From Prevotella ihumii (GTDB lineage Bacteria; Bacteroidota; Bacteroidia; Bacteroidales; Bacteroidaceae), in contig NZ_LT706987.1 of NCBI RefSeq assembly GCF_900155655.1, positions 3,078,767 through 3,142,766 on the forward strand: DNA of 64,000 nt, in the 5' to 3' direction. The position numbers and the translations under genes are program-made. Shown here piece by piece: positions 20,152 through 53,421 of this stretch. Under the pieces are notes generated by a model. The model made no database searches, was not told the DNA's origin, and saw only the letters and a list, made by a program, of their open reading frames with translations. The first letter of the stretch is position 1. Each line of letters opens with the position of its first letter.

Positions 20152-20272
20152 TTAAACCCAAATCGGTCGTCGGACTTGTCGGACCAGTCGGACTTGTCGG
20201 ACGTGTCAGACGTGTCGGACGTGTCAGACAAGTCCGACTGGTCCGACAAGTCCGACGACCGATTTGGGTTAA
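20152..20272. repeat. GTCSGAC repeat with full AACCCAAATCGG inverted ends
   Basis: The ends read TTAAACCCAAATCGGTCGTC and, inverted, GACGACCGATTTGGGTTAA. Inside are twelve 9-bp units that change from GTCGGAC/GTCAGAC to GTCCGAC, making one long imperfect palindrome. As 9 bp is a multiple of three, the + frame reads Ser-Asp-X repeats, but there is no sign that this is translated. It lies between the converging rubredoxin and LolA genes. Confidence 0.9.
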
Positions 20273-35990: not shown

Positions 35991-36213
35991 TGTCCGAAAG
36001 GAGCTCTCTATCCAAGACGATAGGACGGAATCCGACAATAGGATAGAAGTGACGTTGCTCAAAGGGACAGCTGAAAACAACTTTCCACACACCGTGAGGT
36101 GTAAAAGTACGAAACCGCTGTATGCCGAACGGCACGTACGGTGGTGTGGGAGGTAGGTAAATGTGAAAGTAGGAGGTAACTGCCTTTCATGAATAACATT
36201 TACCTCCTACCCG
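35991..36213 (+). ncRNA. Group II intron 3' remnant (domains V-VI)
   Basis: The stretch ACCGCTGTATGCCGAACGGC followed by ACGTACGGTGGT (about 36115-36147) has the layout of intron domain V: AC/GT-paired stem, bulge and GAA tetraloop-like cap. Immediately after, GGTAGGTAAATGT pairs with ACATTTACCTCCTACC (about 36150-36210) as domain VI. The element ends in GAC. There is no reverse-transcriptase frame, so it is a dead or ORF-less relic. The 5' limit is uncertain. Confidence 0.7.
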
Positions 36214-36226
36214 ACTCTGCGTTTGC

Positions 36227-38520: not shown

Positions 38521-38679
38521 TTATTCTCCTTCAGCGAAATCGTCGTCTGGGTCTCCCACAACTCCTCCGTTGGTAAAGCCTTCTACGTCTCCATGCTTAC
38601 TCCCTGCAAGTAAGTCATTTTCATGATTTACTAAAACAACAGTAGCTTTGGGTGCTACATACTCTTTTTTACTTACCAT
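38521..38679 (-). CDS. Conserved 52-residue acidic small protein
   Basis: The frame runs MVSKKEYVAPKATVVLVNHE and ends DPDDDFAEGE. The N-terminal KKEYVAPKATVV with a following hydrophobic strand and an acidic Gly/Asp tail resembles the 50-60-residue proteins encoded ahead of surface lipoproteins in Prevotella. It has no signal peptide. It lies first in the operon with the 745-residue lipoprotein and follows a leader of about 165 bases. Its function is unknown. It is below the size many gene callers accept. Confidence 0.75.
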   Translation of the reverse strand: MVSKKEYVAPKATVVLVNHENDLLAGSKHGDVEGFTNGGVVGDPDDDFAEGE

Positions 38680-38704: not shown

Positions 38705-38945
38705 TTTTTCTTTACCTCAATACCGCAGCACTATTATGAATTAAATATTTTAAGTGTCTGAGCAACAATAAGTTGCTTAGGGTTTATTATGTCAGAATTT
38801 TCACTTATCTTAGTGTTGCAAAATCAAACAAGCAAAAATCTGATGTGATATGGCAAAGTTACAAATTAAATCTGAATAACTCACTCATTTTGAGAATTAT
38901 TTTCGGGTTATGGAGCAATTTTACTCTACGGTTCGATTTATCGAG
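38705..38945 (-). promoter_or_regulatory. Promoter and leader A, homologous to leader B at 52955
   Basis: On the minus strand a TAACTTTG -7 box (38854-38861) is followed by a leader of about 165 bases. It shares long blocks with the region in front of the 52929 gene, such as GATAAGTGAAAATTCTGACA and, upstream of the box, GAGTTATTCAGATTTAATTT. The conserved part covers sequence both upstream and downstream of the box. Confidence 0.75.
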
Positions 38946-38999
38946 TTCCGTATCGCGGTAAGGGTTGCTTGTGGAGCTCGATAAATCGAACCCCTACAT

Positions 39000-39148
39000 T
39001 AAACCCAAATCGGACTCGTCCGACCCGTCCGACTTGTCGGACTTGTCTGACTTGTCGGACTTGTCTGACTTGTCTGACTTGTCGGACACGTCTGACACGT
39101 CCGACCCGTCCGACTGGTCCGACTGGGCTAACGACCGATTTGGGTTAA
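39000..39148. repeat. GTCSGAC repeat with AACCCAAATCGG ends
   Basis: The left end is TTAAACCCAAATCGGAC and the right end AACGACCGATTTGGGTTAA. About thirteen 9-bp units lie between, mostly GTCGGACTT and GTCTGACTT on the left and GTCCGACNN on the right. It sits downstream of the S16 gene. Confidence 0.9.
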
Positions 39149-39252
39149 ACGCCAGACGGGTTGTGGATATTTAGAACAATTCTGCCAAAGGCTACAACGT
39201 GTGAAAACGTATCCACAACTCATTGATAATAAAAGGCTCGCATACTCGTTCT

Positions 39253-39337
39253 AAAACATATATGTTTCACCACCCCAAACATATATGTTTTACCGTCTCA
39301 AAGTTGAACTTTGACAACACCAAACATCAACTTTTGG
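39253..39337. repeat. Palindrome array, second locus
   Basis: Units are AAACATATATGTTT twice, AAAGTTGAACTTT once and a decayed AAACATCAACTTTT, at about 22-24 bp spacing. The order of palindrome types matches the array at 15095. Confidence 0.8.
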
Positions 39338-39393
39338 AAGCTAAAGGTATAACGATGATATGCCAAAGGGTAATGAGTGGAAATACAGAACAA

Positions 39394-39426
39394 AAAAAAG
39401 ATGCACCCACAAGCGTGCATCTTTTT
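39394..39426 (-). terminator. Terminator of the S16 gene
   Basis: AAAAGATGCAC pairs with GTGCATCTTTT across an 8-base loop, with a U-run in the direction of the S16 transcript. Confidence 0.85.
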
Positions 39427-39446
39427 GTTTTGTTGAAGTATGAAAT

Positions 39447-39995
39447 TTATGCTTCAGCTGGTGTTTCTTCAGCTTCCTGAGCTGGTGCTTCTGCTTCAGC
39501 AGCTGCTGCCTGAGCAGCTTCAGCCTCAGCTTGTGCAGCAGCCTTCTTTTCAGCTACTTTCTGAGCAATTGCTTCATTTGCCTTCTTTTCTGCTTCGAGT
39601 GCCTTTGCTGCATTAGCCTTCTTCTCATCAGCAGTCTTCTTTTCCAAAGCCTCTACAGCTGCTGTCTTACCGCTTTTCCAAGCGTCATACTTCTGCTGAC
39701 AAGTTGCTTCGTCGAATGCGCCCTTCTTCACACCACCGCGGAGGTGCTTCATCATATACACACCTTCGCCCTTGAGCAAGTTGCGTACTGTGTCTGTAGG
39801 CTGAGCACCTGTCTCAACCCAGTAAAGGGCACGGTCGAAATTCAAATCTACTGTGGCAGGATTGGTGTTAGGATTGTAAGTACCAACCTTCTCAATAAAT
39901 TTACCATCACGTGGTGCACGAACGTCAGCGATTACGATGCTATATACAGCATAGCCTTTACGACCACCGCGTTGCAATCTGATTTTTGTTGCCAT
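39447..39995 (-). CDS. rpsP: 30S ribosomal protein S16 with long C-terminal tail
   Basis: The first ~80 residues are canonical S16 ([20 protein letters not shown] to [20 protein letters not shown]). The following ~100 residues are an Ala/Lys/Glu-rich helix ending in [14 protein letters not shown]. Such tails are normal for Bacteroidota S16; elsewhere the protein ends near residue 85. It is monocistronic here with its own terminator. Confidence 0.96.
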
Positions 39996-40128
39996 AATTT
40001 TGTTTTTATATTTTAATTAGGTTTGAATTTAATGCTATTATCTCGTAATAGCGACTGCAAAATTACAACTTTCTTTTCTAACTACCAAACTATCTGAACA
40101 TTATATCGCTTTCGATACGGATAAAAAA

Positions 40129-40160
40129 CAAAAAAGGTGCACATTGCGTAGCAATATACA
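40129..40160. terminator. Terminator-like hairpin after the zinc-ribbon gene
   Basis: AAGGTGCACATTGC pairs with GCAATATACACCTT with one or two mismatches. It lies between the divergent S16 start and the end of the zinc-ribbon gene and could stop the latter transcript. Confidence 0.6.
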
Positions 40161-40167
40161 CCTTATT

Positions 40168-40276
40168 TATCCCAAATCGGTCGTTAGACCAGTCCGACCA
40201 GTCCGACCAGTCGGACCAGTCTGACCGGTCTGACCAGTCCGACTATTCCGACTGGTCTAATGACCGATTTGGGTTT
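40168..40276. repeat. GTCSGAC repeat with CCCAAATCGG ends
   Basis: The ends are TCCCAAATCGGTCGTTAGAC and its inverted form AATGACCGATTTGGG. About eight units lie between, changing orientation near the middle. It abuts the end of the zinc-ribbon gene. Confidence 0.9.
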
Positions 40277-40297
40277 ATATATATGTCTCTTATCTGT

Positions 40298-41671
40298 TTA
40301 TTCCGTTTCAGTTGGCTTTGCTGGGGCTGCTTGTTGCACCCAGTTGATAGAAACGATGCGTTTGTCTTGCACCTTGGCTTGGATTGCAAATCGTTTAGAC
40401 GACTTTCCGCCCTCGCGTTCTATTACCAATTGGGCAGGTATCTTTATGGTTTGCATCACCGACCCATCGTCCATCTTGTCGGTTGTGGCTGCTGTTGTGC
40501 TGCCCAAATGCCAATTGACGCTCTTTACATCGGCTTGGTAAAGTCGCTCACGCATATAGGTTGCTACATCTTTGGTGGTAGCTCCACTTGCTCCAAGAAA
40601 GCTGAATTGGGTTGCCACTACTGCGGCTATCTTTTCTGTACTCTTGGTGTTGATGCCTCGCAAGAAGTCGCGCACTAAGCTTTCGGCTACACGCTGTTCG
40701 TCGGGCGATGAGGTATTGTCTAACAACACCTTCAGTTTCTCGTCGGCTTCCTTATTGTGTACACCGTTAGGATATTTCTCTTTGTACCCCAAATACGATG
40801 CTTCGTTATCCAGTCGGGTGGCTTCTGCCCACGCCAATTCGTCTATTCGCTTTACTATTTCAGCCTTATGCACGGTTTTGGGATGACCTGCAAGATAGCT
40901 TTCGTAGGTAGTTATGTTGTTGGCTTTCAATACTTCTTCCCAGTCAGCGTTCTCTTGTTTCAGCTTCTGCACCTGTGCTTTCACGGCTCTCAGATGGGCT
41001 ATTGGCGCATTGCTGTGGTCGTTAAGATAGGTGTTCATTACTTCTATATCGTTGCTACTCATTGCCGTTTCGTAGGCTTCGGCTTCGTTGCTTGTATTGC
41101 TTTTCTTATTGTAAAGGAATACAAAGAGTGCTGCCGTGAGGAGTGCCAATAGTACCGAGACAAGGAGCGGTAGGTGGTTGTTGTTCTTTTCTTTATCGGT
41201 TTCGGTAGGTGTGGGGTCTTGGGTTAGGGATTGTGCCACAAGCGGTTCGGCTACCACTTCTTGGGTTGTGGGCGCTTCTTCCGCAATGACTTGTTGGGGA
41301 GCAGTAGGGGGTGGGGTGGGGAAGGGTTCGGTATCTTTCTCCACTTCTATATTTTCGGTAGGCTGTGGGGTTGGCGTTTCCTCTATAATAAAATCCACAA
41401 TCTGTCCTGTTGCTACCGTTGTTGACTCGTGATAGTCGGTCGTTTTAACTGCCTCTGTTTGCCGATCCTTAGGCGTTTCCTCTACTTTGGGTGCTTCGTT
41501 GTGTGACTCTTCTGTGCAATGGCAATTGGGACAAATAATATCTTCTTTAAGATATATTTCTCCACAATGCGAACACTTGGTGATGTGGCCTGCTATTTCT
41601 ACTCCACAACTTGGGCATACAGGAGCTTTATCGCTCACTTGATGCCCACATTCAGGACACTTTATAATCAT
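40298..41671 (-). CDS. Zinc-ribbon membrane protein with NTF2-like tail
   Basis: The 457 residues start with two zinc ribbons: CPECGHQVSDKAPVCPSCG and CSHCGEIYLKEDIICPNCH. A long Pro/Thr/Glu linker follows (about 55-165), then one membrane helix (LPLLVSVLLALLTAALFVFL, about 172-191), a helical section and a C-terminal domain (about 350-455) that may be NTF2-like. The cytoplasmic ribbons and the outer tail suggest a signalling or scaffold role, but no function is known. Confidence 0.75.
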   Translation of the reverse strand: MIIKCPECGHQVSDKAPVCPSCGVEIAGHITKCSHCGEIYLKEDIICPNCHCTEESHNEAPKVEETPKDRQTEAVKTTDYHESTTVATGQIVDFIIEETPTPQPTENIEVEKDTEPFPTPPPTAPQQVIAEEAPTTQEVVAEPLVAQSLTQDPTPTETDKEKNNNHLPLLVSVLLALLTAALFVFLYNKKSNTSNEAEAYETAMSSNDIEVMNTYLNDHSNAPIAHLRAVKAQVQKLKQENADWEEVLKANNITTYESYLAGHPKTVHKAEIVKRIDELAWAEATRLDNEASYLGYKEKYPNGVHNKEADEKLKVLLDNTSSPDEQRVAESLVRDFLRGINTKSTEKIAAVVATQFSFLGASGATTKDVATYMRERLYQADVKSVNWHLGSTTAATTDKMDDGSVMQTIKIPAQLVIEREGGKSSKRFAIQAKVQDKRIVSINWVQQAAPAKPTETE

Positions 41672-41729
41672 TGAATCTTATAATTTATTTAGTTTTTATT
41701 GTGTCTATTTCCTTTATTTACAGCACGTT

Positions 41730-42437
41730 TTACCGTTTCCGATTGTATCTTATTTCTCGCATACTGTGGCGTCCTATCAGTCTACTCTTGTCTACATAGC
41801 CTCGTACGCCATTAATGCTGCCCTTACCCGTGTACTGCCAAGCAAAGATGTCTCGACCATCGTTCAGTTGTGGTTCGCGTCCGTTGTATTGGGCAATGAA
41901 TAGTTTGTAACCATCTAATGAACCTGAAAGGTGCTTGTTGTAGAAGTTGGTGTAGGTGTAAACCAAGGGGCGAACGCCGTATTCTTGGGTCATCAGCTCA
42001 AGAAAGGTGTTGAGACTATCGCGCAAAGCATAATCGCTTAGTCCCCCAGTGGTTTCTATATCTACCATCGGAATAAGGTCTTGGTCTTGTGGACGACATT
42101 GTGCACGGAAGTTTCTGAGTTGTTCTATCTGTGGGGTACGTGGTCGATAGAAGTGATACGACCCTACTTTCATTCTGTGGCGTTGTGCCGCCCGAATATT
42201 TTCGTAATAGCGTTTGTCTATAATGGTGCTACCCTCTGTGGCTTTAAGATAGACATAATAAAGTTTGTGATTGCTGTTTTCGGCTACCGTTTCCCACCAC
42301 ACATCGCCTTGGTAATGGCTCATATCAAGGCCGTGTATGTGATTGCACGTATCTTCACACTGAATACTATATTGCGCTTTCGCTGAACTTACGAAAGCTA
42401 TACACAAATATAAAAATATAATCCACTTCTTTATCAT
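41730..42437 (-). CDS. GH25 family lysozyme (secreted)
   Basis: Starting at ATG 42437, the protein has about 235 residues with a signal peptide ending near SSAKA. The GH25 fold shows HGLDMSHYQGDVWW, KATEGSTIIDKRYYENI, GSYHFYRP, PMVDIETTGG with the catalytic Asp/Glu, and FIAQYNGREP. It should cleave peptidoglycan in the periplasm or outside. The upstream TTG in frame lies within the promoter box and is not a start. Confidence 0.9.
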   Translation of the reverse strand: MIKKWIIFLYLCIAFVSSAKAQYSIQCEDTCNHIHGLDMSHYQGDVWWETVAENSNHKLYYVYLKATEGSTIIDKRYYENIRAAQRHRMKVGSYHFYRPRTPQIEQLRNFRAQCRPQDQDLIPMVDIETTGGLSDYALRDSLNTFLELMTQEYGVRPLVYTYTNFYNKHLSGSLDGYKLFIAQYNGREPQLNDGRDIFAWQYTGKGSINGVRGYVDKSRLIGRHSMREIRYNRKR

Positions 42438-42443
42438 ATCTTG

Positions 42444-42451
42444 CAAAGATA
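42444..42451 (-). promoter_or_regulatory. -7 box of the GH25 gene, near-leaderless
   Basis: TATCTTTG ends only six bases before the ATG, so transcription would begin at or within the start codon region. Confidence 0.6.
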
Positions 42452-42530
42452 CAATTAATAATCCATATATGGAAAAGATAGATTTTTATTTAGCCAAATT
42501 TAAGGTGGGTTTTATTCATGATCACTGATA

Positions 42531-42622
42531 AACCCAAATCGGTCGTCGGACTTGTCGGACCAGTCTGACCAGTCTGACCAGTCGGACCAGTCAGACAAGT
42601 CGGACCAGTCGGACCAGTCTGA
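42531..42622. repeat. GTCGGAC repeat, one AACCCAAATCGG end
   Basis: The left end is TAAACCCAAATCGGTCGTCG, followed by about nine GTCGGAC or GTCTGAC units that run directly into the stop codon of the Nfn-like gene. The second end is missing, as if the gene side had been trimmed. Confidence 0.88.
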
Positions 42623-44941
42623 CTATTTCAGCAATGCTGCACCCATACTCTTGGCAGCCTTTCGACCGTCACCCATTGCAAGAACAACGGTAGCAGGTCC
42701 GTGAACGATATCGCCACCTGCATAGATTTCAGGGTTAGAACTTTGCATTTCTTCGTTTACAACGATGGTGTCTTTCCAACCTAATTCAAGTCCTTCTATC
42801 GACTTAGGTACAAGCGAGTTAGGTAATACACCTACTGCCACAATGGCTTGGTCGCACACCAACTCGATAGTCTTTCCTGTTTTCTTAGGCGAACGGCGTC
42901 CGCTCTCGTCTGGTTCGCCAAGTTCCATCACGTCAAGGATAACACCCTTTACCTTGCCTTCTTCATCGGTGAGGTACTCTTTTGGATTGTGCAAGGTGAG
43001 GAAATTGATGCCTTCTTCTTTTGCTTCACGTATTTCTACCTGACCAGCTGGCATTTCTTCTTCCGAACGACGATATACTACCGTAACCTCTGCACCCAAG
43101 CGTTTCGCTGTTCGGCACGAGTCCATGGCTGTGTTACCACCACCAATGATGATGACTTTCTTGCCTAAGAAGATTGGCGTTTCGCTTTCTGGATTGGCTG
43201 CGTCCATCAAGTTGAGGCGTGTAAGATATTCGTTGCTCGACATAATATTGATAGCGTTCTCACCAGGGATACCCATAAAGTTTGGCACACCTGCACCCGA
43301 ACCTACGAAAAAGCCCTTGAAACCATTTGCACGCAACTCGTCTATGGTAACTGTTTTGCCAACAATAATGTCGGTTTGGAAATGAACGCCTGCACGTCTG
43401 AGGTTTTCTATTTCTACATCAACAATGCGGTTAGGCAAGCGGAATTCGGGAATACCATATTTCAAAACACCACCCAACTCATGCAAAGCTTCGAATACAT
43501 AAACATCAAAGCCTTGTTTTGCCATATCGCCCGCAAAGCTCAATCCTGCAGGGCCTGACCCCACAACAGCTACCTTAATGCCATTGGCAGGTGCAACCTC
43601 GATAGGTGTAATATTGCCGCTCTCTCTTTCATAGTCGGCAATAAAACGTTCCAAGTTGCCAATTGCTACTGCTTCGCTCTTCATCTTCAAGTGAATACAG
43701 CTGCCCTCGCATTGTTTTTCTTGTGGACAAACACGACCACAGATAGCAGGGAGCGAAGATGTAGATTTCAAAACTTTAGCCGCATTGAGTATATCGCCAC
43801 GTTCTATATTCTTAATAAAGCTTGGAATGTCGTTATGAACAGGACAACCTTGCACACAAGTAGGCTTAGCACAGTCTAAACAGCGATGTGCTTCGTTGAT
43901 AGCCATATCCAATGTTAACCCCTTACTTACTTCCTCCATACGTGTTGTAGCACGATAGGTAGGGTCGAGCATTGGCATTTCTACACGCTTAATTGCAGTG
44001 CGCTCTTTGGGTTTCATAGCCTTGCGCAATGCTTGACGCCACTCCGCATCTCTGTCGGTTATCATTTCGAGGGTTTCCTCGTTGTGGGTAATGCCTTCAA
44101 AGGCTGCGCTATCGGTTTTGTTTTCTTTGTTCAGCAGACCTATATCTTGGCGTTTTACACCCTTAGAAACCTGTGTTCGCTTGATCACTTCGTCCCAGTT
44201 TACTGCATTGCCATCAAATTCTGGGCCATCAATACATACAAATTTAGTGCGTTCGCCCACAGTGATACGACACGCTCCGCACATACCTGCACCGTCTAAC
44301 ATAATGGTATTGAGGTAGATGCTATTCGCTATATTGCGTTCTTTAGCAAGGGTAGACACAGCTTGCATCATCTTTGGTGAACCAAAAACATAGACTTTGT
44401 CCACTTGTTCACGACCCATTACTTGCGCTACACCCATCACAGCTGCGCCTGCATTGCCCATTGAGCCATCTTCGGTCATAACGATAACCTCGTCAGCAAC
44501 AGCCTTAGCCTCATCAGCCATAATGATTTGTTCCTTTGTAGCTCCCGAAAGCACTGCAACGACCTTGTTTCCAACTGCTTTTAATGCTTCCATAACAGGC
44601 AGCAAGGCTGCATTGCCAAGGGTTTCGCCTGCACAAACTACGGTACCAAAGTTTTCTATCTTAGAAGGAGAACCCAATGGTCCAACGATGTCGGCTACAT
44701 TGTCGTTTTCAGAAAGTTGACTTAGCTTAGTTGAAGATACGCTGTTGGCTTGCAGAATAATAGATATTGATCCACGTGACGGGTCTACCTTTGTAATGTT
44801 ATAAGGCATACGTGCACTCTTTTCGTCTACACGAATAATTACAAAGTTGCCAGCTCTGCAACTGCGTGCAATCTGTGGTGCTTCTACTTCTAAGCAATAC
44901 ACATCGTTTGCGAATTGCTCTTTGCGGAGAATCTTGTTCAT
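42623..44941 (-). CDS. Fused NfnB/NfnA-like flavoprotein (FNR-type plus GltD-like)
   Basis: The 772 residues combine two electron-transfer proteins. Residues 1-275 are a ferredoxin-reductase-like module with RMPYNITKVD for FAD and a 2Fe-2S site (DGAGMCGACRITVGERTKFVC). Residues 290-772 are a GltD-like module with two 4Fe-4S motifs (CLDCAKPTCVQGCPVHNDIP; CGRVCPQEKQCEGSC) and two dinucleotide sites (GSGPAGLSFAG; IGGGNTAMDS). It resembles NADH-dependent ferredoxin:NADP+ oxidoreductase or sulfide dehydrogenase. The fusion is common in Bacteroidota, where it is often labelled glutamate synthase small subunit. Confidence 0.88.
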   Translation of the reverse strand: MNKILRKEQFANDVYCLEVEAPQIARSCRAGNFVIIRVDEKSARMPYNITKVDPSRGSISIILQANSVSSTKLSQLSENDNVADIVGPLGSPSKIENFGTVVCAGETLGNAALLPVMEALKAVGNKVVAVLSGATKEQIIMADEAKAVADEVIVMTEDGSMGNAGAAVMGVAQVMGREQVDKVYVFGSPKMMQAVSTLAKERNIANSIYLNTIMLDGAGMCGACRITVGERTKFVCIDGPEFDGNAVNWDEVIKRTQVSKGVKRQDIGLLNKENKTDSAAFEGITHNEETLEMITDRDAEWRQALRKAMKPKERTAIKRVEMPMLDPTYRATTRMEEVSKGLTLDMAINEAHRCLDCAKPTCVQGCPVHNDIPSFIKNIERGDILNAAKVLKSTSSLPAICGRVCPQEKQCEGSCIHLKMKSEAVAIGNLERFIADYERESGNITPIEVAPANGIKVAVVGSGPAGLSFAGDMAKQGFDVYVFEALHELGGVLKYGIPEFRLPNRIVDVEIENLRRAGVHFQTDIIVGKTVTIDELRANGFKGFFVGSGAGVPNFMGIPGENAINIMSSNEYLTRLNLMDAANPESETPIFLGKKVIIIGGGNTAMDSCRTAKRLGAEVTVVYRRSEEEMPAGQVEIREAKEEGINFLTLHNPKEYLTDEEGKVKGVILDVMELGEPDESGRRSPKKTGKTIELVCDQAIVAVGVLPNSLVPKSIEGLELGWKDTIVVNEEMQSSNPEIYAGGDIVHGPATVVLAMGDGRKAAKSMGAALLK

Positions 44942-44984
44942 GTCTTATTAGGTTAAAAATGATTTAAATCGTTTTTGTAATTTT

Positions 44985-45003
44985 GTTTTATAGAACCAGC
45001 CTA
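44985..45003. repeat. Type A repeat terminal fragment
   Basis: TTTATAGAACCAGCC matches the right end of the type A element and is all that remains here. Confidence 0.55.
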
Positions 45004-45054
45004 TAAGGTCTCGGGGCACTCCTTTTCCCCATAATATCAGATTGTAGTGATTGG

Positions 45055-45114
45055 AAAAGAGAAGCGCAAATCCCACCTTATATATATATTAGCGCACGTT
45101 TACGCTTCTCTTTT
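45055..45114 (-). terminator. Terminator of serS
   Basis: AAAAGAGAAGCG and CGCTTCTCTTTT pair over 12 bp around a loop of about 36 bases with a TA-rich centre. The long loop is unusual and the symmetric arms work in either direction. Confidence 0.7.
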
Positions 45115-45137
45115 ATGTTTTTAGGTTATATGTTGTC

Positions 45138-46427
45138 TTAGAAATTCTTATCGTCAAGCATATCGAAACCACAATAAGGAACGAGTGCTTTTGGCACACG
45201 GATACCCTCAGGAGTTTGATAGTTCTCGATGATAGCTGCCACGATACGAGGCAAAGCCAATGCCGAACCATTCAGCGTATGGCAAAGTTCTATCTTCTTA
45301 TCCTCTGCCTTGCGATAACGACAGTGCAAGCGATTGGCCTGATAGCTCTCAAAGTTGGAAACCGAACTTACCTCCAACCAGCGTTCTTGGGCTGCACTCC
45401 ACACCTCAAAGTCGTAACAAATGGCTGATGTGAAACTCATATCGCCACCACAAAGACGAAGAATGTGGTAAGGCAACTCCAACTTCTGAAGCAAGCCCTC
45501 TACGTGGGTGAGCATCTCATTGAGCGACTCGTACGAGTGTTGTGGCGTGTCGATACGCACAATTTCTACCTTATCAAATTGGTGCAAGCGGTTCAAACCA
45601 CGTACATCCTTACCATAACTACCTGCTTCACGGCGGAAACAAGACGAGTAAGCACAACGCTTGATAGGCAAGTCTTTCTCGTCAAGAATTTCATCACGGA
45701 AGATATTGGTTACAGGAACCTCAGCAGTAGGAATTAAGTAGAGGTCGTCTGTCTGTGCGTGATACATCTGTCCTTCCTTGTCGGGCAACTGTCCTGTGCC
45801 TAAGCCTGATGCCTGATTGACAAGCAATGGAGGTTGTACTTCTAAGTAGCCGCTCTTGCGCGCTTCTTCCAAGAAGAATGCTTCCAATGCACGCTGAAGA
45901 CGAGCCATCTTGCCAATATAGATTGGGAAGCCTGCACCCGTTACTTTCACACCAAGATCGAAGTCTACGAGGTTGTACTTCTTACACAAATCCCAATGGC
46001 AAAGCACTTCGCCCTCCAAAGAAGGCATCTCTCCACCCTCTTTTACGATAACATTGTCGCTTGCGTCACGACCTTCAGGCACGTCAGCATTAGCAATATT
46101 AGGAATGGTGAGCAACACTTCGGTCATATCCTGTTGTGCCTTATCCATTTCCTCTTGCAAGGTTTTGTCGGCTTGCTTTAGCTCTGCCACCTTGTTTTTT
46201 ATGTCGTTAGCCTCGTCTTTCTTGCCTTCTTTCATCAAGCCACCTATCTGCTTGGCAAGTAGGTTTTGCTGCTGCTTGTTGCTATCCAACTTCTGTTGGC
46301 ATTCACGACGCTGCTTGTCGAATTCTAAAACTTTGTCAATAGCCTCTTTCGCACCTGCAAAGTGCTTCTTCTCGAGACCTTTTATTACACGTTCCGTTTC
46401 TTCGTTGATAAGCTTTAATGTAAGCAT
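45138..46427 (-). CDS. serS: Seryl-tRNA synthetase
   Basis: The 429 residues have the N-terminal coiled-coil arm (about 27-100) and a class II core. Visible motifs are TAEVPVTNIFRDE, CFRREAGSYGKDVRGLNRLHQF (motif 2) and LNGSALALPRIVAAIIENYQ (motif 3). It charges tRNA-Ser and is essential. A TAACTTTG box lies about 35 bp upstream (about 46461-46468). Confidence 0.97.
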   Translation of the reverse strand: MLTLKLINEETERVIKGLEKKHFAGAKEAIDKVLEFDKQRRECQQKLDSNKQQQNLLAKQIGGLMKEGKKDEANDIKNKVAELKQADKTLQEEMDKAQQDMTEVLLTIPNIANADVPEGRDASDNVIVKEGGEMPSLEGEVLCHWDLCKKYNLVDFDLGVKVTGAGFPIYIGKMARLQRALEAFFLEEARKSGYLEVQPPLLVNQASGLGTGQLPDKEGQMYHAQTDDLYLIPTAEVPVTNIFRDEILDEKDLPIKRCAYSSCFRREAGSYGKDVRGLNRLHQFDKVEIVRIDTPQHSYESLNEMLTHVEGLLQKLELPYHILRLCGGDMSFTSAICYDFEVWSAAQERWLEVSSVSNFESYQANRLHCRYRKAEDKKIELCHTLNGSALALPRIVAAIIENYQTPEGIRVPKALVPYCGFDMLDDKNF

Positions 46428-46754
46428 ATACTCTTAAAGGTTTAATGTTCTTATTTGGTCAACAAAGTTACAAAAAATTATTCTATCAGCATTGGAAATC
46501 AGCCATTAATCTATAATTTACGAACAGATTGTTTGAGAAATGGCTCATTTCATCGAATATTGTACAGAAAGAAAAACATAAGGGTGGCTATTTGCAATGT
46601 GTGCATAGCGTTTCAAGACCTTAGCGGTTAGAAAGAAAAGATAAGCACAAATAGCAGCAGAACCTTAGGCTTCAAAAAAGACAATGGGTGAGAACAAGCC
46701 TTTTGCTTGCTCCCACCCATAGGGGTATCTAAAATATTTTCTTATGCTACGTTT
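46428..46754. other. Intergenic region between serS and the porin gene
   Basis: The region holds the serS promoter (TAACTTTG, about 46461-46468) and, at its far end, the hairpin that ends the porin transcript. I see nothing in the ~200 bases between them. Confidence 0.5.
46684..46723 (-). terminator. Terminator of the porin-like gene
   Basis: TGGGTGAGAACAAGC pairs with GCTTGCTCCCACCCA, one or two bulges, followed in the minus direction by TTGTCTTTTTT. Confidence 0.75.
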
Positions 46755-48344
46755 TTAGAAGGTATAGCCCAATGTTAACAACAATTGACCTTGATTGTTT
46801 TCAATCTTGGTTGCACCTGTGGTGTTGCTGAAAGGTATTTCCACATCCTTTTGGGTCTTCTTGTCCTTCATTGTTACCGAGCCTACCATATTAGAGAATG
46901 GGTAGAAATCGCCCTTTTGCGCTGAGTATTGGTAAGCCAAGTCGACAGAGAAATGCTTTACCTTATAACCTACACCGAGGGTAAACCTATTGATTGCGTC
47001 CCAATTGGTGAAATCGGTAGTTGACGAATAATAAGTACCTGGTGAGAAAATAGTTGGGTCTTTTTGGCGATCCTTGTTATACTTTCCGCTTACATAGTTG
47101 TAACCTGCACGCAACGAAAGGTTCTTAACAGGCTTGTATTCTGCACCTATCTTGAGTGTGCTTACACCTTTCAATGTGTTCTTGGTGTGATTGTTCATAT
47201 TCACATCAGGACTTGTCGATTCGTATGTGCTGCCTGTGTAGTAGTCTACTTCCACACCATCGTTGATGCGCGTATTGATAGTGCTGTGGTCTTCGTACTC
47301 GTACGTCAAACCGAAAGCAAGGTAATTGCCAACCGTGTGACCCAACGAGAAGCCAAAACGCCAAGGTGTCCAAATCTTAAAGTCGTATGCTTCAGCCGCT
47401 TTCGCACGCTTTGAAGAGCCACCCACAGTAGTACCATTCTCAAGATAAGTTGCATTCTCTGTGCGAAGGTCGTACCAAGTAGGCGACTTCACATAAGCAC
47501 CCAAACGGAATGGAGACTCAGCTATGGGGCGAACAATAACGCCTGCTGTAACATCAAAACCTGTACCTGTAATGCAACGCTCGTCAGCCACATCTATAAA
47601 GCCTCGATTATTGGCTAATGCCTCCTTGTACGATGTGGTTCTATCATAGTGTACATCCTTCATTCCAAAGGTCAAGCCAAGGAATACACGCTCGTCAATA
47701 TTGGTACTAAAACTGAAGTCGTAATTGGCAATATAACCCGTGTTGGCACGAAGCATATCGAACGAACTTGCTGGGTAATCGTATAGTCGGCCGCCCTCCT
47801 TTGCATCAGGCAGTACCGATGTGCGGTAAAGGTGGTCTATCTGACTGTATGTAGGGTCGTTTTTCTCAAAACCGCTGCCCAACAGAGCCTTGATATACGA
47901 CTGACTATTCTGCGAACTTGAAGTATTGGCATTTGATGCTTCAAAATTGCCTGCTGCACTAAGCACATAATTAAAGTTTCTACCTTTGCTATAGTTGAAA
48001 CCGAAGTTTAATGGTATGCCGTTCATCTTAGGCCTATACACAAAGCCTATTTGGTCGAAACTTGCGTTGGTCTTACTGCCATTAGCAAAATTACGTCCGT
48101 TGCTTTGCATCAGCAGACTACCAGTAGCAAAGATAGAGCTGTGTCTATTCAGACCTAAACCTGCAGGGTTTGAACCGATAGTAGAAATATCTGCGCCGAG
48201 GGCTTCCAAAGCTCCACCCATACCCACATATCGAGCCGTACCATTAAGGTCGTGGTCGGTAAGTCGAGCATTTTCGTAAGTTTCTTGTGCTGCTGCTGGC
48301 AGAGAAAGCAAGGTCGCTACCAGCAAATAATATTGCATCTTCAT
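46755..48344 (-). CDS. FadL/OmpP1-like outer-membrane protein
   Basis: The 529 residues begin with a signal peptide (ending PAAAQE). The N-terminal part LNGTARYVGMGGALEALGADISTIGSNPAGLGL is the hallmark of the OMPP1/FadL-like family in Bacteroidota. The rest shows alternating amphipathic strands ending in LLTLGYTF with a terminal Phe, as in outer-membrane barrels. It probably moves hydrophobic molecules across the outer membrane. It follows the Gly/Tyr-rich protein gene by 57 bases. Confidence 0.85.
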   Translation of the reverse strand: MKMQYYLLVATLLSLPAAAQETYENARLTDHDLNGTARYVGMGGALEALGADISTIGSNPAGLGLNRHSSIFATGSLLMQSNGRNFANGSKTNASFDQIGFVYRPKMNGIPLNFGFNYSKGRNFNYVLSAAGNFEASNANTSSSQNSQSYIKALLGSGFEKNDPTYSQIDHLYRTSVLPDAKEGGRLYDYPASSFDMLRANTGYIANYDFSFSTNIDERVFLGLTFGMKDVHYDRTTSYKEALANNRGFIDVADERCITGTGFDVTAGVIVRPIAESPFRLGAYVKSPTWYDLRTENATYLENGTTVGGSSKRAKAAEAYDFKIWTPWRFGFSLGHTVGNYLAFGLTYEYEDHSTINTRINDGVEVDYYTGSTYESTSPDVNMNNHTKNTLKGVSTLKIGAEYKPVKNLSLRAGYNYVSGKYNKDRQKDPTIFSPGTYYSSTTDFTNWDAINRFTLGVGYKVKHFSVDLAYQYSAQKGDFYPFSNMVGSVTMKDKKTQKDVEIPFSNTTGATKIENNQGQLLLTLGYTF

Positions 48345-48401
48345 AATTATAAAATTTATTTAGACGTTATGAATTTCCGATAATTGTGTATGCTTTGGGG
48401 C

Positions 48402-49361
48402 TTATCTGTGTCCGCCAAAGCCACCACTGCCGCCCGAACGTGAACCGCCAAAGCTGCCACCTGATGGACGTGAGCCACCAAACGAGCCTGAACCAAACGA
48501 ACGTGGAGTAGTATTCATACGTGGTGTATTGAAGTCGTTGTAGCGTTGATTAAATCTATTGTTATACGAACGGTTGCGATTGTCAATGCGCACATCACGG
48601 CGATTGAGATTGCCAAAGCTATTTGTATTTCTACGTTGGTTATAGTAGCCACTGCCACGATTGATTACTGCACCTCTGTGTCCACCAAACTGATTTGGCG
48701 AATAGCTGCCGCTGCCAGCCCAGTGGTTTTGTGTGCCCGTGCGTCCGCTGTAATAACCATAGCGAGGCGCCCAATAGTATCCATAGTAAGGACGGCTGTA
48801 ATAGAAGCTGTCGTAATAGTATGGATAGCCGTAATAGCCATAGTAGTGCCAAGGGCGGCGATAGCCATAATAGCCGTAGTATCCGCCATAGCCATAATAC
48901 CAAGGGTCGTAGAAGTCGTCAAACCAAGGGTCGTAGAAGCCCATTCTATAATAATAAGGTGAAGGATAACACCAAGAGCCGTAATAGCCATAACCATAAA
49001 AACCATCAAAACGGCTCATTCGGCGACTAAATCTGTAATCGTCCATATCGTTATAGTAGTAGCTGTCAGCCATATACACCGTATCTATACCAAACGAGCC
49101 ATCGTAGGTGCGGAAACGAATAATGTCGTTGCCCAATGAATCGCTACCAATACGCTTGTATGTGCCTGGTACACGATAGCGACGATTGTAATCGTTTTCC
49201 GACTTATTGATACCTCCATAATAAGTAGGCGATTCGGCTACATCGTCGCCAACATTCTTTTCTACCTTAGGAGAAGGTGTAAAATACAAATCATCGTCTT
49301 GTGCTAAGAGCGATGTTGGCAGTACACCCAATAAGATTGCAAATAAAATAAATCTTTTCAT
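48402..49361 (-). CDS. Secreted Tyr/Gly/Arg-rich low-complexity protein
   Basis: The 319 residues have a signal peptide (ending LLAQ). After an ordered region (about 20-100) comes a Tyr/Gly/Trp-rich section (about 115-205, GYYGYYGYRRPWHYYGYYGY-like) with over half aromatic or Gly residues. A basic Asn/Arg section and a final Gly/Ser/Phe tail (SGGSFGGSRSGGSGGFGGHR) follow. The pattern resembles adhesive or phase-separating proteins. No enzyme motif is present. A GGAGGT ribosome site lies before the start. Confidence 0.75.
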   Translation of the reverse strand: MKRFILFAILLGVLPTSLLAQDDDLYFTPSPKVEKNVGDDVAESPTYYGGINKSENDYNRRYRVPGTYKRIGSDSLGNDIIRFRTYDGSFGIDTVYMADSYYYNDMDDYRFSRRMSRFDGFYGYGYYGSWCYPSPYYYRMGFYDPWFDDFYDPWYYGYGGYYGYYGYRRPWHYYGYYGYPYYYDSFYYSRPYYGYYWAPRYGYYSGRTGTQNHWAGSGSYSPNQFGGHRGAVINRGSGYYNQRRNTNSFGNLNRRDVRIDNRNRSYNNRFNQRYNDFNTPRMNTTPRSFGSGSFGGSRPSGGSFGGSRSGGSGGFGGHR

Positions 49362-49480
49362 ATTGTTACCTCCAATTGTTTTTTTTATGTATTGTTTTTG
49401 TGCTATTGCATCATTTGCTTATCCGTCTGTGCTGTGGATTTAGTTGACTGAACATTAGGAATCTGCTTACCCCAACCGCT

Positions 49481-49679
49481 TCATTCAAGTTTGTCCCCTC
49501 ACGTCTAAGGTGCAACAAGTCATTCAAGTTTGTCCCCCCACGTCTAAGGTGCAACAAGTCATTCAAGTTTGTCCCCCCTCACGTCTAAGGTGCAACAAGT
49601 CATTCAAGTTTGTCCCCCCTCACGTCTAAGGTGCAACAAGGCTGTTAAGTTTGTCCCCTCACGTCTAAGGAGCAACAAG
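49481..49679. repeat. Five-copy tandem repeat of 39-41 bp
   Basis: The unit begins TCATTCAAGTTTGTCCCC and ends ACGTCTAAGGTGCAACAAG. Units 1-2 are 39 bp, units 3-4 are 41 bp because of CCCCCCTC runs, and unit 5 has diverged at its start. It lies between the probable promoter (49762) and the start of the Tyr/Gly-rich gene, that is, in that gene's leader RNA. Confidence 0.92.
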
Positions 49680-49761
49680 TCTGTTTTTACTTTCCTCCAC
49701 CTCGTACCAAAATATGTGTTTTGTATTATTGTGCAGTTAGTGAAGTTTTTGCATTATGATG

Positions 49762-49769
49762 CAAATATA
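49762..49769 (-). promoter_or_regulatory. Probable -7 box of the 49361 gene
   Basis: TATATTTG on the minus strand is the best match upstream of the Tyr/Gly-rich gene. It would give a leader of nearly 400 bases carrying the five tandem repeats. Confidence 0.45.
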
Positions 49770-49852
49770 ATAATACTCTTTCTGCAAAAGTACGGATTTT
49801 CCCTAACTTAGAATAGGATTTCCCTATTTTTTTGCAGAAAATAAGTAGCTTT

Positions 49853-49987
49853 AACCCAAATCGGTCGTCGGACTTGTCGGACCAGTCAGACCCGTCCGAC
49901 TGGTCCGACTGGTCCGACTGGTCCGACTGGTCTGACTGGTCTGACTGGTCCGACTGGTCCGACAAGTCTAACGACCGATTTGGGTTA
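49853..49987. repeat. GTCSGAC repeat with complete AACCCAAATCGG ends
   Basis: The ends are TTAACCCAAATCGGTCGTCG and the inverted CTAACGACCGATTTGGGTTAA. About twelve 9-bp units lie inside, with GTCGGAC on the left and GTCCGACTG on the right. It is upstream of both flanking genes. Confidence 0.9.
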
Positions 49988-50062
49988 AAAAAAGTTGTTG
50001 TAAGTTGATGATTATCCAATTATAATTATTAAATTTGCATTAAACGCAATGAAAAAGAGAAA

Positions 50063-50173
50063 ATGGAAGACTTAAATCGCATAAAAGTAGTGTTAGTAGA
50101 GAAAAAAAGAACCAATAAATGGTTGGCAGAGCAGTTAGGAAAAGATCCTGTGTCTTTTCCTGAAAAAAGTTGA
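50063..50173 (+). pseudogene. XRE-type HTH gene truncated by an IS3-like element
   Basis: The first 29 codons (MEDLNRIKVVLVEKKRTNKW, then LAEQLGKDP) closely match the R-M regulator at 633. After that the frame passes into IS DNA and stops at 50173. Its own TAAATTTG -7 box lies at 50030-50037. It is a relic of a second R-M or similar operon whose other genes are gone. Confidence 0.85.
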
Positions 50174-50565
50174 CTCTAAAAAGTCAACATAATGTTTAAG
50201 TACAACTGTACAAAGCGTAACCTTTATTATAATAAAGTTATTGCTTTACATTTCGAAAAAGGCTACGGTCATTCACATATAGCCAAACTTATTCCTGTAA
50301 GTGAGAAAACAATCTCACGTTGGATTTGTATCTTTGCAGAGGAGAATCAGCTAAGACAATCAATGAAAGAAAAAAAATCATCAGCCCGTATATCAGGCTC
50401 AGCGTCCTCAGAAAACTCAGAGGATCTGTTATCTCTTCGTCGTGAGCTTAAAGCGTTAAAGGAGGAACTTGCAGCAGCATCATTACGTGCTGATGCTTAT
50501 GACGAGATGATTAATGTTGCAGAAAAGCAATTTAATATCTCTATCCGAAAAAAACTGGCGCCAAA
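50149..50565 (+). mobile_element. IS3-like element, left part only
   Basis: The element begins TGTGTCTTTTCCTGAAAAAA, typical of an IS3-family terminus, directly at the break in the HTH gene. It carries orfA but no orfB. The right part was lost when another decayed IS became joined at about 50565. Confidence 0.7.
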
Positions 50566-50584
50566 CGGTGAAGAACCTGCATGA
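50192..50584 (+). CDS. IS3-family OrfA-like protein, altered C-terminus
   Basis: The 130-residue frame has an HTH (GHSHIAKLIPVSEKTISRW, about 28-46) and a Leu-rich coiled coil (about 80-105), as in IS3 OrfA. It ends FNISIRKK followed by LAPNGEEPA, where relatives continue with a Lys/Gly-rich tail, so the last ~9 residues come from the joined DNA. With no OrfB it cannot make a transposase. Confidence 0.75.
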   Translation: MFKYNCTKRNLYYNKVIALHFEKGYGHSHIAKLIPVSEKTISRWICIFAEENQLRQSMKEKKSSARISGSASSENSEDLLSLRRELKALKEELAAASLRADAYDEMINVAEKQFNISIRKKLAPNGEEPA

Positions 50585-50589
50585 CAAGT

Positions 50590-51165
50590 CCTCTCGTCTC
50601 TATCCAGTCGAGAGACCTTGTCAGCTGTTTGGCGTAACTATGGTCTGCTAATTTATTTCTTTCATACAACCTTGTGGTGTGGGTAATCTCCTTCCCCAGA
50701 TAGGTCTTGTCGGCCTGTATCTCCTTGGGCAACATGCCGAAACGCTTTTTGTAGAGTTCCAGCTGCATGCCGAGGTCGGATGATTCGTTATAGGCGTCCC
50801 AGCTGACAAGGTTCACTTAGGTGTAACCGCTCACGATGCTGGCACCGATTTTCGCACCGAACTCAACCGTGACCTTCGCCTTGCCGCTGACAATGGGACG
50901 GAGATGCGGCTGGTAGATGCTGCTGATGCGGTCGGCACATCTGCGGACGTTCTGCTCGAACATCATTTTTTGCTGTTCATACATCTTGAACGCTGCCTGA
51001 AGACATTTGTAGTCATGGCGGCTGAAGCAAGCTCCGCAAGCATCAGGGTCAGCATGTAGAAGAAGTCATGGTCGAGTCGCTTGCGAACAAGGACGAACAA
51101 CTCTGGAACGAATACCGGCTTTTCCGTAATTTCATTGCGATTCTTGAATGTTTTAACATCCAAAG
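50590..51165 (-). pseudogene. Decayed IS1182-like transposase
   Basis: Read leftward, fragments match the intact transposase at 57750. PVFVPELFVLVRKRL fits the N-terminal domain, and RISSIYQPHLRPIVSGKAK, VEFGAKIGASIVSGYT and SWDAYNES fit the centre. An in-frame stop follows SGYT and large internal parts are missing. A matching terminal repeat (TAGGGTCTACTAATTAAC) lies at about 51230-51252. Confidence 0.8.
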
Positions 51166-51323
51166 GTAGTCAGTTTAGGCGAATTGACCAAATTTTATAC
51201 AACATAAATAGTTAATTGTTAGATAGTTATAGTTAATTAGTAGACCCTAACTACCTTACAGATGTCACTCAGATTCTGACCTCCAAGGCCTGTACTACTT
51301 GAACGTATCATACACGAACATCT

Positions 51324-51512
51324 CTATTTTGCTATTCCTTTCGGCATAGCTTGATTCTGAATACGGCCGTCCTTCTGTATGTACGCACAGGTACGGTAGT
51401 CGCTGTTTTGAACGCGCTGTGCCGATGCGGAGAGCGAGAGGGCAAGACCTAACACCACTGCTGCCATGCGAAGGCTGAAGTGCTTACGGCTGAAAAGATA
51501 AGTTGATGTCAT
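51324..51512 (-). CDS. Short secreted protein, contracted beta-flower-like
   Basis: The 62 residues begin with a signal peptide ending near SASAQ. The mature part RVQNSDYRTCAYIQKDGRIQ resembles one repeat of the '5-fold beta-flower' proteins of Bacteroidota, which carry about five such repeats. Only one is present, so it may be a contracted remnant of a longer gene. It is surrounded by transposon debris. Family placement is from memory and not certain. Confidence 0.45.
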   Translation of the reverse strand: MTSTYLFSRKHFSLRMAAVVLGLALSLSASAQRVQNSDYRTCAYIQKDGRIQNQAMPKGIAK

Positions 51513-51620
51513 ACTAAGTTATTTTTAATTGTTATACAAATGGTACAATTCACATCCTTTTCCCACCGTGACACTTAACATTGGGCTCGGTTGGGGCAGC
51601 TCGCAGCTGACTCTTGATGT

Positions 51621-51822
51621 TTATCCCAAATCGTCATTAGACCAGTTTAGGGCTTGTCTATCTATTTACCGAAACTTATGAGATGTCTTTTTGCCTTATT
51701 TTGGCTTTATTTTACCTATATCGGCAGTCACATAGCCCGCTATGCTTCTTTGATATATGCAAAATAAATCTCAAAATAAGCTCAAAAAATACATTCTCAT
51801 TCTAACGACCGATTTGGGTTTA
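51621..51822. repeat. MITE-like element, type B
   Basis: The ends are ATCCCAAATCGTCATTAGAC and CTAACGACCGATTTGGGTTT. The interior has the hairpin CATAGC-CC-GCTATG and blocks shared with 53189-53387. The TAA stop of the 369-residue gene lies at its right end. Confidence 0.88.
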
Positions 51823-52929
51823 ATCTCTCTGCTTCTTTATTTGTTCGTGCTTGATTCTTTCGTCTAAAGAAGGAATATAGATGTCGAACGATTCGTTAAA
51901 GATAAACTGATGCGTTTTGTACAATTCACAAGCATCTCCCGAGAGTGTTGTATATCTATAGTTTGCTGTACTTACTGGTTTTATATAATCAGCCATCAAT
52001 TTGCAAAATGGTGCGAATTTCAGTGCACTGTAGTCAGGTACAAAGCTATCATAGAGAATGCAACAAAGCAAGCCAAAACTCTTAGCCGTCTTTCTACCAA
52101 AGATAGTGTTAAAATCATCAGACCGCGTTGATTTTCCGTGATAGGCATTGCGAATATTGGATATTACCTTCTTTAGGAATTCAAGCTTTTCCTTTGGATT
52201 ATCAATCTGCACTAATTGATAATTACCATCGATTTTTTCTTCTCGTACAGGACTTGAAGCTCCAGACAGTATAGCAAACTTCTCTGAAAAATCTTCTGCT
52301 TTCTTGCAGTGTCCGGCAACCTCCCGCAAAAATTTGAGCACATCACGTGATTGGTATAAGCGCACACTCATATTGCGCATCAGCGTATTCGAAATGGATG
52401 CGCTAAAAGTCTCGGCTATATCTTCCATCACTGGGCGTAATGTTTCTACAGCCCTTTCTTCTTCTTCATATTGTACACGAGCAGCAGGCATAAAGCGATG
52501 TCTTGGAATAAGCCAAAGCAGATAATATCCTATGTCTAAGACCTTCTCACGCTGCTCATCGGATAAATACGAACTTTCGCCAACAATGTCGATAGCCTCC
52601 TTTAGCTCTTTAGCCATACTATAAACTTTTATTCCTGGGATATGGATAATCAGACTATTGGTTTTTACAGATGGACCCATAAACATCGAATAGGCACTCA
52701 ACCACTTTGGGTACTCTTCGGGCAGGCACTCGTGGAGCTGTCTACTTACCTTTTCTGCAATCATCTTTTCCGTAGGAATATCTTCCATTCCCGCTTCTTT
52801 TATTTTAAGTAAAAGGCCTAACGAATATGGATCACCATTTCTTTCGATAAAACGAAAAGTCTTCTCTTCACCCGTATCGGGATTTTTATAGAAGAATCGA
52901 TAAACACAAAGTTCAGTATCTTGAATCAT
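51820..52929 (-). CDS. Conserved hypothetical protein, 369 residues
   Basis: I do not recognise this protein. It has no signal peptide or membrane helix and looks alpha-helical and soluble. Features are RFFYKNPDTGEEKTFRFIER near the start, a central RHRFMPAARVQYEEEERAVE and NAYHGKSTRSDDFNTIFGRK near residue 290. It has its own promoter and a leader homologous to that of the 38679 gene. Its stop codon lies within a type B repeat. Confidence 0.7.
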   Translation of the reverse strand: MIQDTELCVYRFFYKNPDTGEEKTFRFIERNGDPYSLGLLLKIKEAGMEDIPTEKMIAEKVSRQLHECLPEEYPKWLSAYSMFMGPSVKTNSLIIHIPGIKVYSMAKELKEAIDIVGESSYLSDEQREKVLDIGYYLLWLIPRHRFMPAARVQYEEEERAVETLRPVMEDIAETFSASISNTLMRNMSVRLYQSRDVLKFLREVAGHCKKAEDFSEKFAILSGASSPVREEKIDGNYQLVQIDNPKEKLEFLKKVISNIRNAYHGKSTRSDDFNTIFGRKTAKSFGLLCCILYDSFVPDYSALKFAPFCKLMADYIKPVSTANYRYTTLSGDACELYKTHQFIFNESFDIYIPSLDERIKHEQIKKQRD

Positions 52930-52954
52930 AGTAGGTTATTTTATCCTTAATTCT

Positions 52955-53165
52955 GCAACACTATTATAAATTAAACTTTTTAAGTACCTGAGCAACAAAA
53001 AGCTCTTGCTTTGGCAAGCGGCAGAGCCGAGCGGCTCAGGATTTTGCCATGTCAGATTTTTCACTTATCTTAGTGTTGCAAAAAAAAGAGAATCCGACAA
53101 TAGATATGGCAAAGATACAAATTAAATCTGAAAAACTCACTCCTTTTGAGGGATTATTTTCGGGT
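52955..53165 (-). promoter_or_regulatory. Promoter and leader B, homologous to leader A at 38705
   Basis: A TATCTTTG box (53110-53117) is followed by about 175 bases of leader. Blocks shared with leader A lie on both sides of the box. Leader B has an extra ~40 bases rich in GAGCCGCTCGGCTC and GCTTGCCAAAGCAAGAGC followed by TTTTTG, which could fold as an attenuator. Confidence 0.75.
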
Positions 53166-53188
53166 CATAGAGCAATTTGACTCCACAT

Positions 53189-53421
53189 TATCCCAAATCG
53201 GTCGTTAGAATGAGAATGTATTTTGCGATTATGTTGAGTTTTATTTTGTATATATCAAAGGAGCATAGCGGGCTATGTGACTGCAGATATAGGTAAAATA
53301 AAGCCAAAATAAGACAAAAGACAGCTCATAAGTTTCAAAAAGAATAAAGTAAGCACCTAAACTGGTCTAATGACGATTTGGGTTTAATGACGATATGCGG
53401 TGGTAATTTATAGCACCAGCC
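53189..53421. repeat. Type B MITE-like element joined to a type A end
   Basis: The type B part (53189-53387) begins TATCCCAAATCGGTCGTTAG, has the hairpin CATAGC-GG-GCTATG and ends TGACGATTTGGGTTTAA. Directly following is a type A right end (ATGACGATATGCGGTGGTAA then TTTATAGCACCAGCC). The join suggests one family inserted within the other. Confidence 0.85.

Follow-up and report, generated by a model that had tools for sequence, protein, structure and literature searches.

The window, a 64,000-nucleotide stretch of the Prevotella ihumii genome (contig NZ_LT706987.1, positions 3,078,767 to 3,142,766), carries two related segments of a little over 200 bases, each lying directly in front of a gene. 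Both segments, the 38 kb copy and the 53 kb copy, are solo, decayed left ends of an insertion sequence (IS) of the IS1380 family, and they very probably now serve as mobile outward promoters of the adjoining genes. In the following, type A denotes the parent element in the same genome, and G010 a second genome of the genus. The features at the two sites are as follows.

36227-38464, minus strand: gene of a 745-residue lipoprotein-like protein, in the same operon as the small protein; 64% identical orthologue in G010
38521-38679, minus strand: gene of a 52-residue small protein, start 35 bases from the IS terminus; orthologue visible in G010
38715-38929, minus strand: decayed left end of a type A IS1380-family element, element positions 1-215, directed outward to the small-protein/lipoprotein operon; 80% identical to an intact copy by blastn
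38715-38729, plus strand: left terminal inverted repeat, diverged, CCTCAATACCGCAGC
38806-38813, plus strand: putative inward -7 box of the transposase, TATCTTAG
38850-38879, plus strand: transposase-start relic MAKLQIKSE, then a stop; intact homologue MAKIHIKSEKLTPFGG
38854-38861, minus strand: outward -7 box TAACTTTG, of the Bacteroidetes form TAnnTTTG
51820-52929, minus strand: gene of a 369-residue protein, start 15 bases from the IS terminus
52945-53192, minus strand: decayed left end of a type A element, element positions 1-221 plus a 29-base insert, directed outward to the 369-residue gene; 75% gapped identity to an intact copy by blastn
52945-52959, plus strand: left terminal inverted repeat, CCTTAATTCTGCAAC
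53005-53033, minus strand: 29-base insert with two short stems
53066-53073, plus strand: putative inward -7 box of the transposase, TATCTTAG, with TTTG 19 bases upstream
53106-53180, plus strand: transposase-start relic MAKIQIKSEKLTPFEGLFSGHRAI, then a stop
53110-53117, minus strand: outward -7 box TATCTTTG

The original prediction, made from the letters of the window alone, described homologous promoter-leaders about 14 kb apart in front of unrelated genes. This homology was confirmed. An alignment of the two segments takes in the TAnnTTTG box, and the 38 kb copy is itself one of the genome matches to the 53 kb copy (72% identity, E = 9.7e-36). Where the "leader" breaks off sharply on its 3' side, the IS ends: in an alignment of 22 copies the shared part ends in ...GCGGAATTAAGG with small variants, and the sequences differ beyond it. 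From box to terminus we measured 139 bases in the 38 kb copy and 165 bases in the 53 kb copy, against the 165-175 bases claimed for the leader. The start codons follow the terminus after merely 35 bases (small-protein ATG, 38,679) and 15 bases (369-residue gene, 52,929), and the "promoter" read on the opposite strand is the protein start MAKIQIKSEKLTPF. Only element positions 1-215 and 1-221 are present in the two copies, their transposase relics run into early stops, and the searches made gave no right end for either of them. The window copies are remnants, not elements.

An additional hairpin had been ascribed to the 53 kb copy. The extra 29 bases are indeed present, but they are not unique to it, as the insert is common to other copies in the genome; a 31-mer matches 12 genome sites at up to three mismatches. 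One 5-pair stem within it (53018-53005, minus strand) was scored as terminator-like in a scan. The left end of IS613 (see below) and the intact type A element both lack the insert. Several other genomes of the genus contain short matches (near query positions 158-193), so the 29 bases may constitute an independent small repeat.

Further copies, for which a genome search had been proposed, are numerous. With the 261 bases of the 53 kb copy as query, 42 matches were obtained at E <= 1, of which 22 cover at least 143 of the 261 bases, two are short 3' fragments and 18 are others. Sixteen of these 18 were read and belong to two diverged subfamilies, type B (12) and type C (4), in which the transposase-like start continues into a transposase, whole or broken; two of the 42 matches, those at 682 kb and 1,833 kb, were not taken for copies. 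The window copies descend from type A, an element of 1,592 bp that encodes a transposase of 428 amino acids, ends in the inverted repeats CCTTAATTCCGCAAC / CCTCAAATCCGCAAC, and is present as three identical intact copies. Type B measures 1,605 bp, and its intact copies have a reading frame of 433 aa. The type A and type B transposases are 48% identical and match the IS1380-family model NF033539 of NCBIfam with 331 and 264 bits respectively (cut-off 180); that of type A also matches PF01609 and PF13701, the latter above its cut-off. Among the 9 type B copies having their own type of right end, 8 lie between exact 5-bp target duplications, as do 4 of the 11 two-ended type A copies, all three intact ones included. 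The parent element thus combines an IS1380-type transposase, terminal inverted repeats and a short target duplication, as expected of the IS1380 family.

The genome holds 14 right ends of type A, 11 of which pair by position with left ends. Solo type A ends number 13 left versus 3 right (p = 0.021). A left fragment of matching orientation is found 5 kb away from one of the solo right ends (2,498,388); if these two form one pair, the counts become 12 versus 2 (p = 0.013). It should also be pointed out that IS homology ends at exactly position 221 in eight type A remnants, with window position 53192 and the G000 loci L041, L042, L044, L045 and L051 among the sites. Directly after this junction stands the repeat CCCAAATCGG in seven of the eight, one with a one-base variant.

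An empty site is available for the 38 kb copy. The 745-residue protein was found in 2 of 100 genomes of the genus at E <= 1e-20, namely the source genome and G010 (64% identity). At the G010 locus the small-protein and lipoprotein genes are conserved in order, and the region is 70% identical over 2,562 columns. The IS segment is not present at this orthologous operon, where blastn homology reaches window position 38,709 and goes no further, six bases short of the IS terminus (38,715). Because the orthologous operon lacks the segment and homology stops beside the IS terminus, an IS insertion is demonstrated at the 38 kb site. The sequence TATATTTG lying upstream in G010 could be the native promoter of the operon. 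Since the 369-residue gene was found in the source genome only (1 of 100 genus genomes at E <= 1e-10), the same comparison is impossible at 53 kb. Searches of Pfam and NCBIfam gave no match for the 745-residue lipoprotein-like protein or for the 369-residue protein; for the small protein, these tests took in the first 50 of its 52 residues.

The orientation of the ends toward genes was then determined throughout the genome. Open reading frames (ORFs) of at least 100 aa within 3 kb were taken longest first without a gene caller, a rule that misses small genes. From 55 pattern matches, 53 left or right ends were taken; the other two, with three mismatches and outside the families, were dropped; 12 of the 14 type A right ends entered the test. 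An end was scored as facing a gene start when the first such ORF runs away from the IS, for left ends the direction in which the outward box would drive it. This applied to 36 of 45 left ends (type A 17/24, type B 14/15, type C 5/6), versus 4 of 26 right ends (type A 2/12, type B 2/14). This difference is significant by Fisher's test overall (p = 1.8e-7) as well as within type A (p = 0.0039) and type B (p = 2.2e-5), and the start codon lies at most 80 bases from the terminus in 22 of the 36 gene-facing left ends. Selection for insertions that activate a gene could produce such a bias, and so could the loss of harmful insertions. When ten of the 36 facing genes were searched against Pfam, seven matched at E 1e-4 and three gave no match. 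The matches were WYL, DUF389, ABC transporter, ASCH, LuxR-type (below its cut-off), heavy-metal P-type ATPase and Cas12a, the last carrying REC1, Cpf1 REC2 and RuvC. A type C left end stands 71 bases before the cas12a start (locus L040, G000:C1:1553500-1559700).

In Bacteroides fragilis the promoter consensus is TTTG / TAnnTTTG, according to the excerpt of PMC9330008. The TAnnTTTG box is present in 41 of 43 left ends, two short fragments being outside this test; both left ends without it are of type A, and one of them is missing that region. The box is also the complement of transposase codons 1-4. Its conservation is therefore partly explained by the coding of MAK(I/V/L), which constrains it. 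In the window each box faces a gene start. A sigma-70 scan was uninformative, as such scans are for Bacteroidetes. On the other strand, inside the "leader" of the 53 kb copy, lies the inward pair TTTG-19 bases-TATCTTAG, which is probably the transposase promoter. The conserved AAGATAAGTG block would be explained by an inward transposase promoter sitting there.

Relatives of the element also occur in other genomes. The left end at 53 kb is matched at E <= 0.001 in 26 of 60 genomes (source genome and relatives), which belong to three of 25 genera. A scan of named genomes confirmed 304 stretches, 80 of which underlie the counts given below for other genomes; among these 80 loci are Bacteroides fragilis, B. 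faecalis, Phocaeicola, Leyella, Segatella copri and Prevotella. In plasmid records the nearest named transposases are those of IS613 (94.4% identity), ISBf12 (93.0%) and IS612 (81.4%), which are the closest named relatives found for the parent IS. The left end of IS613 is 92% identical to that of intact type A, 85% (185/217) to the 53 kb copy and 75% (161/214) to the 38 kb copy. On the B. fragilis plasmid pBFUK1 the IS613 transposase is directed away from the carbapenem-resistance gene cfiA2, and 12 bases separate the IS613 left end from the cfiA2 start codon (ATG). IS613 thus resembles the window copies in having its left end just before a gene start. It differs from them in its full-length transposase gene, the window copies being promoter-side remnants in front of other genes. 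A table in the excerpt of PMC9330008 lists IS612-IS616 and IS942 together with cfiA, seemingly under an IS1380 heading.

Similar arrangements have been described elsewhere. IS614 of B. caccae (1,596 bp) has a putative outward promoter near its 5' end, antisense to the transposase, and the gene downstream was raised 3-8 fold over the upstream neighbour at the four co-oriented loci examined by metatranscriptomics (PMC7260799, excerpt). Its near-identical length and its putative antisense promoter make it similar to type A; outward transcription is supported by metatranscriptomics for IS614 and predicted from sequence for the window copies. ISEcp1, also of the IS1380 family, provides an outward promoter (PMC9330008, excerpt) but differs in its hosts and in its E. 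coli-type promoter sequence. Mobile promoters of prokaryotes are likewise promoter-bearing repeats before unrelated genes, as far as the excerpt of PMC9208149 describes them; the present genome differs in that the parent IS is still there, intact. The titles and abstract openings of the literature searched contain no earlier account for Prevotella. In the excerpt of PMC11448248 an IS1380-family transposase appears once and promoters do not come up, and that of PMC7260799 concerns Bacteroides, not Prevotella.

Taken together, these data suggest a sequence of events. An IS would have inserted close in front of each start codon, a few bases away, thereby separating the gene from its native promoter; G010 documents this for the 38 kb site, and the 53 kb site would have had a similar history. 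The transposase and the right end were later lost or replaced, as far as the right-end searches reached. The outward TAnnTTTG box probably now drives each gene across some 140-165 bases of IS-derived sequence, with IS614 and IS613-cfiA2 as precedents; such transcription, its strength and its use by the two genes are predictions from motif and position. Regulation of expression by the leader stems would be a further step, unsupported beyond weak covariation.

Several observations weigh against this explanation. No good TTTG was found by reading the sequence at the right distance upstream of the outward box, whose -33 element is poor. Among 78 readable starts from other genomes (duplicates included, and dominated by a few multi-copy genomes), the box is exact in 44 and inexact in 34, which read ATGGCGAAGATA (23), ATGGCAAAGAAA (9) or ATGGTAAAGGTA (2). 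Nine of the 45 left ends face no gene start. Not all copies are independent, as three near 3.0 Mb share flanks and two left ends at 807 kb face one gene, and 7 of the 11 two-ended type A copies have no exact duplication. In other genomes the orientation bias is weaker and not significant (left 44/65 versus right 34/66, p = 0.075; 80 loci minus 11 duplicate rows and rows without data), and we therefore place the strong bias in the source genome. The poor -33 element, the partly forced -7 box, the nine non-facing left ends and the weaker bias elsewhere would all suit inert IS debris, in which left ends would not act as promoters and would owe their orientation to a preference for certain insertion sites. 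This explanation is rather unlikely in view of the gene-facing counts of left and right ends, the excess of solo left ends, the gaps of 35 and 15 bases and, in the excerpt of PMC7260799, metatranscriptome data that speak for transcription outward from IS614.

A miniature non-autonomous derivative (MITE) that carries the promoter and is itself mobilised would account for three copies near 3.0 Mb, each made of left 221, 17 and right about 69 positions (308-337 bp in total), and for the recurrence of the position-221 junction in eight copies. But these three copies have no exact 5-bp target duplications and lie within 7 kb of one another, and the searches gave no right end belonging to either window copy, so that a MITE is quite unlikely here. 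A free-standing MITE, suggested by the inverted TGCAACACTA / TAGTGTTGC, was dropped as a general explanation once transposase codons and the intact element had been found.

The original prediction also regarded the repeated unit as one regulatory cassette, perhaps an RNA switch. A single cassette does exist, is repeated in the genome and is probably a promoter source for unrelated genes; an evolved shared leader is not supported. The unit is an IS left end. The proposed folding of the leader alignment gave a weak structure signal: for 23 left ends picked from 41 distinct ones, RNAalifold returned a consensus energy of merely -3.44 kcal/mol, with 1 of 10 predicted pairs covarying. At gathering scores Rfam gave two matches in the window, both outside the segments; at E <= 1 the 53 kb segment had one chance-level match (16.9 bits, gathering score 42) and the 38 kb segment had none. 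A riboswitch or attenuator was rejected in the absence of a credible Rfam match for the segments and with so weak a fold. A true switch, whose leader RNA would sense a signal and control a regulon, could draw on a 4-bp hairpin with one covarying pair (UA 15, UG 4, CG 3, GC 1; n = 23), on the terminator-like stem of the 53 kb copy, and on a CCTGAGC...GCTCAGG stem that is replaced, by eye, by counterparts of other sequence in types B and C. Yet what is conserved is the end of an IS, probably with the transposase promoter inside it, and the ten facing genes tested have no Pfam family in common. We thus consider a shared switch very improbable.

By eye, GTCAGA/TCTGAC is also able to pair around the inward promoter. 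Masking of the transposase start in read-through transcripts is known for some other IS, and the stems might, as a guess, do the same here. A broader proposal combines both aspects: one IS family would have rewired the genome extensively, with dozens of its left ends, some stripped to about 200 bp, taking the place of native promoters at unrelated genes such as the lipoprotein operon, cas12a, a P-type ATPase and a WYL regulator, and conserved stems, which began as protection of the transposase from read-through, would give these genes shared post-transcriptional control. As a whole, this proposal appears doubtful. Outward promoters borne by IS are of a kind already known, and the interest of the present case, which is modest, lies in the genome-wide orientation pattern and in cas12a. 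Should the left ends indeed act as promoters, the expression of many genes here, and not of resistance genes alone, has been set by a single IS family. For practical purposes, an apparent RNA-switch candidate has become a transposon remnant, and repeated promoter-leaders in Bacteroidales call for an IS check.

Some other features of the window were noted. A group II intron match (36113-36215, 43 bits) has no evident adjoining reading frame for an intron protein among the ORFs listed from 34,000 on. A SAM-I-IV riboswitch (51513-51625, minus strand, 48.6 bits) immediately precedes a reading frame of 62 residues, beyond which is a transposase-like fragment; the usual target gene of the riboswitch may be missing. 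An abundant interspersed repeat, CCCAAATCGGTC(G/A)TTAG, occurs at 398 genome sites at up to one mismatch, compared with none in reversed controls. In the window it is found at 20157-20268, 40171-40273 and 49855-49984 and from 53192 onward, as inverted ends around arrays of a 9-base unit (GTCSGACNN) with TTAA or TTTA flanks. A minisatellite within a MITE has been described in Porphyromonas gingivalis, according to the excerpt of PMC4596501.

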